DNA of 20,772 nt from a virus, in the IMG/VR virus record IMGVR_UViG_3300017771_000151, positions 1 through 20,772 of that record; one strand, 5' to 3'. This document shows positions 2 through 3,434 of this stretch, one piece after another. Under the pieces are notes generated by a model, which had not been told where the DNA came from, searched no databases, and saw only the letters and a list, made by a program, of their open reading frames with translations. The stretch's first letter is position 1, and every line of letters begins with the position of its first letter. Position numbers and translations under genes: made by a program.

Positions 2-142
2 GACCTACGAGCTCTCAAAAAAGAGAAAAGTAAAGAAATCTCTGCTAGAGCTCAATTAAGAAAAAGAAGTAAAGATAGTATTGCCAGACCAAAGGCAAAG
101 AAAAATCTTTTTTCTAACGATCCTAGACTACAAGGAATATAG
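2..142 (+). CDS. C-terminal end of an unrecognised basic protein (5' truncated)
   Basis: An open frame enters from the left edge and ends at TAG 140-142, giving 46 visible residues. The visible tail is rich in Lys and Arg (about one residue in three) and ends in a motif like LFSNDPRLQGI. No stop interrupts the frame and its codon use matches the neighbours, so it is very probably the end of a real gene. I cannot name the family from this fragment. Because the region downstream is baseplate genes, it may be a virion or head/tail completion protein, but that is only inferred from position. Confidence 0.6.
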   Translation, partial: DLRALKKEKSKEISARAQLRKRSKDSIARPKAKKNLFSNDPRLQGI

Positions 143-149
143 TGTTTAG

Positions 150-220
150 TATTCTTTAAGACTTTCAAGTGCCATATAAATAGAACGTATGGCACTTGAT
201 AAAAAACATTATAAAGAATA
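150..220. repeat. Two-tier inverted repeat around the late promoter and start codon of the oxygenase gene
   Basis: The inner arms TCAAGTGCCAT (165-175) and ATGGCACTTGA (189-199) are perfect 11-bp complements separated by 13 nt. An outer 9-bp pair follows: TATTCTTTA (150-158) with TAAAGAATA (212-220). The loop (176-188) holds most of a TATAAATA late promoter, and the oxygenase ATG (189-191) lies in the 3' arm. No T-tract follows on either strand, so it does not look like an intrinsic terminator. A translational-control hairpin is the more natural reading. Confidence 0.75.
175..182 (+). promoter_or_regulatory. T4-type late promoter octamer for the oxygenase gene
   Basis: Perfect TATAAATA, the late promoter consensus used by the T4 gp55 sigma factor and found in related marine phages. 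By T4 spacing, transcription would start about 6 nt after the octamer, near 188-189. That is at or next to the ATG at 189, so the mRNA would be leaderless or nearly so. Confidence 0.7.
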
Positions 221-806
221 TAAACTTGATATTGATATTGAAAAATTAGGTAAAGCATATTTAGATTTTAAATTTCATTTAGGTTTTCGTAAAGATGATA
301 AGTCACTAGCTGACTTTAATGCTATCTGTGTTAATAGAATACCTGGTGATGAAAAATCTATATTGGGTGGAAACATAAGAGGTTTGTATTGGACTATGGC
401 TGATACAACGAATTATGAAGAACAAAGATTAGAACCTGTCAAAGAAAGTTTATACACAGAATTGTGTCCAGAATTTAAAAATACTTATATTGAAGAAATA
501 TATAATTTAGTTAAATCTAAATTTAAAATAGGTCGTATGAGATTTTTAATGAAACCACCTCGTACTTGTTTAAGTTGGCACCGTGACCCTGAAATGAGAT
601 TACATATTCCTATAATTACAAACAAAGGTAATATTATGGTTATTGAAGACACAGCTTTTCATATGCCAGCTAATGGAAATGGTTATATAACTGATAACAC
701 AAAGTACCACAATTTCTTCAACGGAAGTGAAGTAGAAAGGGTACACTTGGTTACCACAATACTAGATCATAATTGTTTAGATGATGATTGTTGTAAGCTT
801 TGTTAA
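189..806 (+). CDS. 2-oxoglutarate/Fe(II) oxygenase, aspartyl/asparaginyl beta-hydroxylase type
   Basis: Predicted cytosolic 205-residue non-heme iron dioxygenase that would hydroxylate a substrate using 2-oxoglutarate and O2. The C-terminal half has the family pattern: HRD at 131-133 (first His and acidic ligand), R137-L-H139, a second His at 174 in YHNFFNG, and the RVHLV segment (R184) expected to bind the 2-oxoglutarate carboxylate. Spacing resembles the AspH core. The N-terminal ~110 residues are not recognised. The tail after residue 195 is unusual, acidic and Cys-rich (Cys196, 201, 202, 205). ATG 189 is chosen because it is the first Met and follows the late promoter, but no Shine-Dalgarno is visible. 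The next in-frame Met (about residue 70) is too far in. The stop overlaps the stop of the converging minus-strand gene. The substrate is unknown; phage or host protein modification is possible. Fold confidence is good; function is inferred. Confidence 0.8.
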   Translation: MALDKKHYKEYKLDIDIEKLGKAYLDFKFHLGFRKDDKSLADFNAICVNRIPGDEKSILGGNIRGLYWTMADTTNYEEQRLEPVKESLYTELCPEFKNTYIEEIYNLVKSKFKIGRMRFLMKPPRTCLSWHRDPEMRLHIPIITNKGNIMVIEDTAFHMPANGNGYITDNTKYHNFFNGSEVERVHLVTTILDHNCLDDDCCKLC

Positions 807-818
807 GCTGATACAACA
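789..818. terminator. Hairpin at a stop-over-stop convergent junction (possible bidirectional terminator)
   Basis: TGTTGTA (789-795) pairs with TACAACA (812-818) and AGCTT (796-800) pairs with AAGCT (805-809), with a 2-nt bulge (GA 810-811) and a TGTT loop. The overlapping stop codons of the two converging genes (803-806) lie in the loop and upper stem. There is no T-tract on either side, so classic intrinsic termination is not assured. The position between converging genes is what suggests a termination or RNA 3'-end role. Confidence 0.4.
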
Positions 819-1078
819 TCCATTAAATCGTATGGTACTCTCCATTTTTGTCCAAAAACATCAACGACTGCTTTCTTTGGACCAAGTTTAGCAACAACAC
901 CCTCACGCCATTGTCCTCTCGCTTTACCAAACTTAACTTTAGTACCAATTTTAAACTGATCAGCTTTTACACTTTTAATAGTCTGTTCAATAATAAACAG
1001 ATGACCAGCATTACTTGGGTCTTTGATCCAATCCATAATTCTTGGTAGATCATTAAACTTTAATTGTTCTTTACTCAT
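803..1078 (-). CDS. Small protein with SH3/KOW-like C-terminal half, function unknown
   Basis: 91 residues. Residues about 43-89 (FKIGTKVKFGKARGQWREG, then VVAKLGPKKAVVDV and a WRVPYDLM end) have the beta-barrel rhythm of small SH3/KOW-like domains that often bind nucleic acid or ribosomal partners. The N-terminal 40 residues look helical. The start is well supported: GGGAGGA (1091-1085 on the minus strand) lies 6 nt before the ATG, the best ribosome binding site of the cassette. It is the last gene of the minus-strand cassette, 18 nt after the 121-residue gene, and its stop overlaps that of the oxygenase. The domain call is a pattern judgement and no function is claimed. Confidence 0.75.
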   Translation of the reverse strand: MSKEQLKFNDLPRIMDWIKDPSNAGHLFIIEQTIKSVKADQFKIGTKVKFGKARGQWREGVVAKLGPKKAVVDVFGQKWRVPYDLMDVVSA

Positions 1079-1096
1079 ATATAGTCCTCCCTTTTG

Positions 1097-1462
1097 TTAT
1101 CTTAAATATAATGGTCCTGTCCATTGAATAGCATAATTACCTTCAAGTACATTACCTCTAGCCGAGTTCAAAGCAGGTTTGTTATAACCAGCGGCTTTTA
1201 ATATATCACCTTTTTTAAATCTACCAGAGTCTTCTTTCATTACAAAAGCAAATACACCAGTATCTTGTACAATCTTAACATACTTTTTACCAAAAGTGAC
1301 TTTTGTTTTGCTATCCCAATTATCAACTTGTTCTTTAGAATAACCAACTAACTCTTTTCCACCACTAGTTGACATTCTGATGTAATCTTCTTTGGCACCT
1401 TGCATCATAACTGCTATACCTGATAATATGTTATTTGCTGTTTTATCTATAAAGTATCCCAT
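1097..1462 (-). CDS. Unrecognised 121-residue protein of the minus-strand cassette
   Basis: I do not recognise a family. The N-terminus (residues 1-22, MGYFIDKTANNILSGIAVMM) is moderately hydrophobic but not a clear signal peptide. The middle is a beta-rich region (TKVTFGKKYVKIVQD, 53-67). The C-terminus holds Gly/Asn-rich GNVLEGNYAIQWTGPLYLR (103-121). The start ATG (1462-1460) overlaps the stop of the upstream membrane-protein gene by one base (TAATG). A strong GGAGGA (1473-1468) inside that gene's last codons lies 5 nt before the ATG, so translation is probably coupled. The tight coupling to a two-helix membrane protein suggests that the two products act together, which is inference only. 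Confidence 0.75.
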   Translation of the reverse strand: MGYFIDKTANNILSGIAVMMQGAKEDYIRMSTSGGKELVGYSKEQVDNWDSKTKVTFGKKYVKIVQDTGVFAFVMKEDSGRFKKGDILKAAGYNKPALNSARGNVLEGNYAIQWTGPLYLR

Positions 1463-1704
1463 TATTTTCCTCCATTTACATAGTATTGTGTTAAATCTTC
1501 GTAAGTGTCTTTTTCTTTTACTTCTGCTTCAGCATATAAAGTTTGAGAAAATAGACACATCATATAACTAGTGATACCAGTCATAGCAGCTGCTGCCCCT
1601 AGTAAGTATTGATCTGCCTCTATTGCACCTGTGGCACTAACCATAGCGAGTGTACCAACTACTGCAAAGACCAATGTCATATATTCATATATCTTTTTTT
1701 TCAT
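1462..1704 (-). CDS. Two-helix small membrane protein (holin-size, function unknown)
   Basis: 80 residues with a basic N-terminus (MKKK), a hydrophobic helix at about 9-27, a very short turn (EADQ, 29-32), and a second helix at about 33-53 rich in Ala, Met and Gly. An acidic soluble tail (AEAEVKEKDTYEDLTQYYV, 58-76) follows. The size and hairpin topology are compatible with a small holin or another inner-membrane phage protein, but there is no family-specific motif. The start ATG overlaps the stop of the 42-residue gene as ATGA (1704-1701). AAAGGT (1716-1711) is a fair ribosome binding site 6 nt upstream. It is the second gene in the cassette and is coupled to the next gene through TAATG. Alternatives to a holin are an inhibitor of host membrane proteins or a superinfection-exclusion-like protein. 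Confidence 0.75.
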   Translation of the reverse strand: MKKKIYEYMTLVFAVVGTLAMVSATGAIEADQYLLGAAAAMTGITSYMMCLFSQTLYAEAEVKEKDTYEDLTQYYVNGGK

Positions 1705-2992: not shown

Positions 2993-3000
2993 TATAAATA
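2993..3000 (+). promoter_or_regulatory. T4-type late promoter for the gp25-gp6-gp7-like operon
   Basis: Perfect TATAAATA directly after the PAAR stop. The octamer ends only 8 nt before the ATG at 3009, so by T4 spacing the transcript would begin about 3 nt before the start codon. GGATAAC (2985-2991) and GTTATgCC (3006-3013) flank it as inverted arms, so the promoter again lies in a hairpin loop with the ATG in the 3' arm. Confidence 0.7.
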
Positions 3001-3008
3001 TAAGGGTT

Positions 3009-3434
3009 ATGCCAAATTACGATGCAACTAGTACAAACAATTCTAAACGAGCCTCTAGGTCTTTTAGTGATTTAGATTTAGACTTTGGTAGAAATACTGT
3101 TACTAATGATGTAAATAAATTGACTAATGTTGAGGCGATAAAAAGAAGTGTAAGAAATTTGATTAACACTAATCACTTTGAGAGACCATTTCATCCAGAA
3201 ATAGGTTCTAATGTTAGAGCTATGTTATTTGAGCCATTAATGCCATTAACAGCTTTAAATTTACAAAGAAAGATACAAGAAGTTTTAGAAAACTTTGAGC
3301 CAAGAATAAGAGTTAATCAAATTATAGCAAGACCTGAATATGATAAAAATGCTTATGATGTTAGAATTATGTTTTATATCGTAGGCACAACACAACCAGT
3401 TATAGTACAAACATTTTTGGAAAGATTAAGATAA
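3009..3434 (+). CDS. 25: Baseplate wedge subunit gp25
   Basis: 141 residues; T4 gp25 has 132. Gp25-like proteins (GPW/gp25 family) form part of the wedge core and help start sheath polymerisation. Recognisable elements are SFSDLDLDFGRN (18-29), VEAIKRSVRNLINT (41-54), the FERPFHPEIGSNVRAMLFEP block (57-76) and EPRIRVNQI (97-105) with C-terminal strands. ATG 3009 is the only reasonable start, since the next Met is at residue 72. AAGGG at 3002-3006 is too close (2 nt) for a normal Shine-Dalgarno, so initiation may be leaderless from the adjacent late promoter or by read-through from PAAR. The gp6 gene starts 1 nt after the stop. Confidence 0.92.
   Translation: MPNYDATSTNNSKRASRSFSDLDLDFGRNTVTNDVNKLTNVEAIKRSVRNLINTNHFERPFHPEIGSNVRAMLFEPLMPLTALNLQRKIQEVLENFEPRIRVNQIIARPEYDKNAYDVRIMFYIVGTTQPVIVQTFLERLR

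Follow-up and report, generated by a model that had tools for sequence, protein, structure and literature searches.

A hairpin that encloses a late promoter and the start codon of an oxygenase gene in a T4-like phage: a candidate late-only translation switch

The DNA analysed here, referred to as the window, is a complete IMG/VR record of 20,772 bases from a T4-like phage. Near its start, the start codon of an oxygenase gene lies within an RNA hairpin that also overlaps a late promoter of the gp55 type, and the three together probably form a switch that allows the oxygenase to be translated only from late RNA. The helix covers the start codon, is conserved through compensatory changes in a subset of the homologues, is associated with a co-directional upstream gene and accompanies a fixed distance between promoter and ATG; from these features we infer the transcript starts, the timing and the translation on which such a switch would depend. 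The features are:

2-142, plus strand: 3' end of a small co-directional upstream gene (51 aa, complete in the related contig L002), an open frame to the TAG at 140-142; the likely source of read-through RNA.
150-158, plus strand: outer 5' arm, TATTCTTTA; a 9-bp perfect pair common only to the window and contigs L002-L004, present but of unproven function.
165-176, plus strand: 5' arm of the inner hairpin, TCAAGTGCCATA; 12-bp perfect inverted repeat, in-register helix in homologues.
175-182, plus strand: TATAAATA, T4-type late promoter box (exact match; TAAATA-ATG distance fixed in the family), which runs from the last bases of the 5' arm into the loop.
188-189, plus strand: predicted late transcription start, about 6 nt past the TATA box, based on the geometry of T4 late promoters and on the constant spacing among relatives.
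188-199, plus strand: 3' arm of the inner hairpin, TATGGCACTTGA, which spans the start codon and codons 2-4; supported by the repeat and the homologue helix.
189-806, plus strand: open reading frame of 205 aa, Asp/Arg beta-hydroxylase-like oxygenase gene (PF05118, E 1e-8).
212-220, plus strand: outer 3' arm, TAAAGAATA; pairs perfectly over 9 bp with 150-158, present but of unproven function.

RNA reading in from the co-directional upstream gene would carry both arms and, judging from the folding and covariation described below, would fold, bury the AUG and block the start of ribosomes. Transcription from TATAAATA would, from the spacing, begin about 6 nt further on, at 188-189, and its RNA would lack the 5' arm, remain unfolded and have its 5' end at the AUG or one base ahead of it, and the same spacing suggests that it would be translated as a leaderless or near-leaderless message.

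A sequence-only reading of this region had described a perfect inner repeat of 11 bp (165-175/189-199). The repeat is real but was understated: it is 12 bp long (165-176/188-199), with a loop of 11 nt to which T177.G187 adds an extra wobble pair. No other perfect repeat in the window reaches 12 bp with a loop of 30 or less, and the chance expectation is 0.13 such repeats per dinucleotide shuffle of the whole window, counted before an enclosed late promoter and start codon are demanded. As that reading had also stated, the hairpin encloses the late promoter and holds the ATG (189-191) in its 3' arm; the first two bases of TATAAATA belong to the 5' arm. The RNA of 145-260 folds at -28.0 kcal/mol, compared with a shuffle mean of -13.2 (z -5.1; 0 of 200 shuffles), and RNA from base 188 on does not fold beyond chance (z +0.4), so that removal of the 5' arm abolishes the fold. 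Read-through RNA is thus predicted to carry a stable helix over the translation start, as in switches of the T4 e and I-TevI type. The outer 9-bp pair had been proposed to reinforce this structure. It is present and perfect, but it is found elsewhere only in the near-identical L002-L004, so that relatives give it no support, and in L003 and L004 its 5' arm consists in part of the end of a small upstream ORF.

The 8-bp TATA box TATAAATA, with no -35 element, is an exact match to a T4-type late promoter, and its position relative to the 5' arm would leave that arm out of late RNA. The TATA box of T4 late promoters spans about -13 to -6, and it has been described as lying "about one helical turn upstream" of the start (PMC2988020). 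With a spacing of 5 bases, +1 would therefore fall on the A of the ATG. In the window the gap between TAAATA and ATG is 6 bases, and its late RNA may consequently have one extra base before the AUG. The late sigma factor gp55 and gp33 are annotated in the relatives Mosig and HTVC008M, the window itself being a fragment. No Shine-Dalgarno sequence was found ahead of the ATG of the window, as the sequence-only reading had noted. A start codon further downstream, which would have contradicted that reading, is disfavoured by the fixed distance between ATG and TAAATA in the family and by the annotated pelagiphage genes.

Homologues of the oxygenase were collected from viral contigs and provided about 50 distinct start regions; the closest named relative of the protein is that of Pelagibacter phage Mosig EXVC030M (79% identity). 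In most homologues TAAATA is followed by exactly 5 bases and then ATG. The exact hairpin sequence of the window is present only in L002-L004, and hairpins of other sequence occupy the same position in L151, Mosig (L083), L033/L158 and L017. The window and these four divergent members have a 13-pair helix in common, at the same register relative to the ATG. Across the five aligned members, which were selected for strong hairpins and hence call for an unselected test (see below), 64 of 65 cells (98.5%) are paired, and pairing falls to 20-51% when the partner is slid by 1-3 columns. Both sides have changed at four pairs (A-U to C-G, U-A to A-U, U-A to G-C and G-C to C-G) and one side at three further pairs, G-U included, such that the arms have covaried and the helix has been kept in this subset of homologues. 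G-U pairs occur in the helices of Mosig, L017 and L033.

An inverted repeat whose centre is near a promoter could instead be a DNA operator, with a dimeric protein bound to the dyad around the late promoter controlling transcription and RNA folding being irrelevant. Operators of late promoters do exist, as in the autorepression of T4 I-TevI, where the operator overlaps the late promoter. However, the arm sequences vary among the homologues while their pairing is kept, the G-U pairs fit RNA better than a symmetric DNA site, and the presence of the repeat is tied to a co-directional upstream gene; we therefore consider an operator improbable.

A hairpin is missing from most homologues, among them L063, L074 and L115, whose neighbour is co-directional. 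L123 was dropped as a pstS-linked counterexample without a hairpin after folding revealed an alternative hairpin (TAGTGGTATGTT/AACATATCACTA) that covers its ATG, and a leaderless late start would remove this hairpin too. The scan of the whole collection for CATATAAATA followed by GTATG was set to a gap of 2-3, not 4, which placed window-type copies outside its reach; counts from both pattern scans are "at least" values.

The hairpin goes together with a co-directional gene upstream. For an unselected test of the family, start regions that have a TAAATA promoter were divided according to the orientation of the ORF upstream of them; these calls were mechanical and ORF-based, and 13 loci were ambiguous. 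When arms were mixed and matched, the own arm beat swapped arms in co-directional members (17.7 vs 13.4, P<1e-4, n=14) and was no better than swapped arms in divergent members (P=0.89, n=11). Stem scores of the co-directional and divergent classes differed with p=0.0012, the L002 group being set co-directional by hand, and with p=0.004 in another sampling, the duplex-energy version of which was weaker (p=0.085). The stem-score threshold of 18 was chosen after the data had been seen, and the rank and mix-and-match tests are independent of it. Opening the start codon of read-through RNA was predicted to cost 17.2 kcal/mol for the window group, 16.5 for L151, 15.3 for Mosig, 14.6 for L017, 14.3 for L123 and 13.5 for L158, and a similar calculation for T4 gene e, used as a yardstick, gave 13.4 kcal/mol. 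At divergent loci the cost was at most 7.0 kcal/mol (p=0.01 versus co-directional loci, again with the L002 group assigned by hand), and for RNA begun at the ATG it was 0-2 kcal/mol.

Sister loci follow the same pattern. L083 and L017 (co-directional, with hairpin) and L150 (divergent, without) encode nearly the same protein and have the same coding 3' arm, whereas the 5' side of L150 differs. In a second sister pair, L158 versus L030, the coding 3' arm was kept and the 5' arm lost with a divergent neighbour. On the tree there are 5 changes of hairpin state and 6 of orientation; 2-3 of the 5 independent contrasts go in the predicted direction and 0 in the opposite one, which is too few for significance alone.

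That few independent phylogenetic contrasts are available, and that most homologues have no hairpin, would also fit a chance palindrome in AT-rich DNA, as would the lack of hairpin enrichment in other leaderless late genes (P=0.33 for co-directional, 0.18 for divergent genes). Against this stand the 0.13 repeats expected per window, the z-score of the fold, the compensatory changes and the P<1e-4 of the unselected family test, and chance is a very unlikely explanation. Hairpin enrichment was likewise not found in late genes with long leaders (P=0.67), and the idea that the hairpin is a general feature of late genes was rejected because neither the leaderless nor the long-leader class is enriched.

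The restriction to co-directional contexts, together with the position of the stem-loop directly after the upstream stop codon, raises another explanation, namely that it is a terminator or an RNA-processing or stability signal of the upstream gene and overlaps the promoter and ATG only incidentally. No U-tract follows the stem, which disfavours the terminator version, and a terminator scan finds none here. Moreover, the start codon and codons 2-4 belong to the 3' arm, and the helix keeps its register relative to the ATG from one homologue to another, which makes a signal of the upstream gene unlikely.

In about 2.2 Mb of phage DNA we also measured how far TAAATA lies from the next ATG that begins a gene. 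There is a sharp peak at 5 (76 clusters), a second peak at 8 (31 clusters, many of them gp25) and a broad hump at about 16-25, the spacing expected for leaders with a Shine-Dalgarno sequence; control hexamers without overlap with the promoter word give no such peak. Sites with the 5-base spacing are annotated gene starts in 6 of 6 cases in Mosig and 11 of 11 in HTVC008M, and the genes at such sites include gp2, gp25, head and tail completion proteins and the tape measure. T4 has four such matches in 99 kb, none of them an annotated start. The most economical reading of these spacings is that leaderless late initiation is common in this phage group. The expectation of the sequence-only reading that a leaderless late gene would be unusual for a T4-like phage therefore does not hold: it appears to be ordinary in pelagiphages and unusual only in T4 itself. 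Searches of open-access papers on cyanophages, pelagiphages and T4 gave nothing on point about leaderless late genes, which, at this coverage, is weak evidence of novelty.

Several other genes also have repeats near late promoters. At the baseplate gene gp25 (2993-3009 in the window; relatives e.g. L249:4234 and L036:4271) most relatives have the late promoter 8 nt ahead of the ATG and some have it 5 nt ahead, often with short flanking inverted repeats (for example CGGTTA/TTACCG); a conserved stem is likewise found at the start of T4 gene 25 (PMC3014915). In L275 (9590-9630) a 9-bp hairpin, AAGTCATAC/GTATGACTT, surrounds the TAAATA of a GIY-YIG endonuclease gene (PF01541) and contains its ATG; this resembles T4 I-TevI, with the difference that in L275 the promoter and the ATG are 5 nt apart. 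In L331 (minus strand) and L385:2524, a 184-aa gene family (MRDII.LLEDK..PQDIEII) has a start-codon hairpin around the late promoter, which is perfect over 13 bp in L331 and changed and partly paired in L385. In a gene of about 160-170 aa (MAQNNQAFL.DYT.H; L075:5177, L079:5173 and L247:13671) a hairpin of the ATAACTGTA/TACAGTTAT type surrounds a promoter 8 nt from the ATG, and its sequence varies between contigs. Finally, a conserved stem at the start codon (AGTGAGCAT/ATGCTTACT and variants) is present in a 194-aa gene (MLTEHIIIESAA...) of L372, L285 and L297, whose neighbour is co-directional.

The hairpin of the window is probably a case of the known late switch principle of T4 e and I-TevI, in a variant that hides a leaderless AUG instead of a Shine-Dalgarno sequence. 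The parallel with T4 gene e had been drawn from the sequence and is supported: in T4 e (lysozyme), soc, 49 and I-TevI a long read-through RNA folds over the initiation region, and a late promoter inside the structure gives an RNA without the 5' strand (PMC3014915). The window shares with T4 e, soc and 49 the structure over the start and the internal late promoter, and the opening cost is similar in T4 e. T4 e, however, has a Shine-Dalgarno sequence and a leader, whereas the window has no Shine-Dalgarno sequence and the 5' end of its RNA is predicted at or one base before the AUG. Because the Shine-Dalgarno sequence is absent and the AUG itself is sequestered, we regard the hairpin as a variant and not as a strict member of this class.

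The genes for I-TevI, I-TevII, I-TevIII, segB and Aeh1 mobE are late genes located on long polycistronic early or middle transcripts; only these transcripts carry the hairpin, and an adjacent upstream late promoter frees the initiation site (PMC2988022). Those hairpins hide the ribosome binding site of mobile endonucleases, in contrast to that of the window, which hides the bare AUG of an oxygenase. The PeSL cassettes of T4-like phages, as cited in PMC4503421, combine an early promoter with a terminator-type stem-loop. The window is similar in having a stem-loop beside a phage promoter at a variable locus, but its promoter is late and lies in the loop and its stem lacks the U-tract of a terminator tail, so that it does not qualify as a PeSL cassette.

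In switches of the T4 e and I-TevI type the gene lies downstream of co-directional early or middle transcripts; in the window a co-directional gene precedes the oxygenase gene. The full ORF of this 51-aa gene is present in L002 and L003, and in L002 TATAAATA lies upstream of it. The read-through RNA in the window may for this reason itself be late, in which case the hairpin may separate the translation of two late RNAs and not early from late. The "late-only" character assigned to the switch is thus less sure for the window than for the relatives. At other hairpin loci the upstream gene encodes a phosphate-binding protein (PF12849; L151 and L158) or an annotated phosphate ABC transporter (Mosig), and that of L017 has a weak PHO4 match below the cut-off; from the identity of these genes, read-through RNA at hairpin loci may be a phosphate-stress transcript.

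The surroundings of the gene vary as well. L003 (259-360) has a small membrane-protein ORF between the 51-aa gene and the hairpin that the window (143-150) and L002 lack, a local insertion or deletion just beyond the outer arm. The possibility that the outer arm (about 150) marks the recombination junction of a promoter-gene cassette was rejected, since the same 51-aa gene also precedes the hairpin in L003, which leaves an indel as the difference. On the other side, window 803-1704 has three small ORFs on the minus strand (91, 121 and 80 aa, of unknown function) that face the oxygenase gene; the one of 91 aa overlaps the stop codon of that gene.

The T4 late-gene hairpin switch was already known for lysozyme and for homing endonucleases with Shine-Dalgarno sites. 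Here it would act on the leaderless AUG of a metabolic-type oxygenase of ocean phages, which suggests that these phages routinely make leaderless late mRNAs and need other means to silence read-through RNA. For the marine T4-like phages of SAR11, we narrowly favour the view that they produce a set of leaderless late mRNAs whose promoter lies exactly 5 nt ahead of the AUG, and that a hairpin gates the bare AUG of a mobile auxiliary oxygenase gene, being gained behind a co-directional gene, often one for phosphate uptake, and lost with a divergent neighbour. TAAATA plus 5 nt would give annotators of this phage group a start-codon rule, and the dependence on neighbour orientation offers a testable reason why some copies of the gene have the hairpin and others do not.
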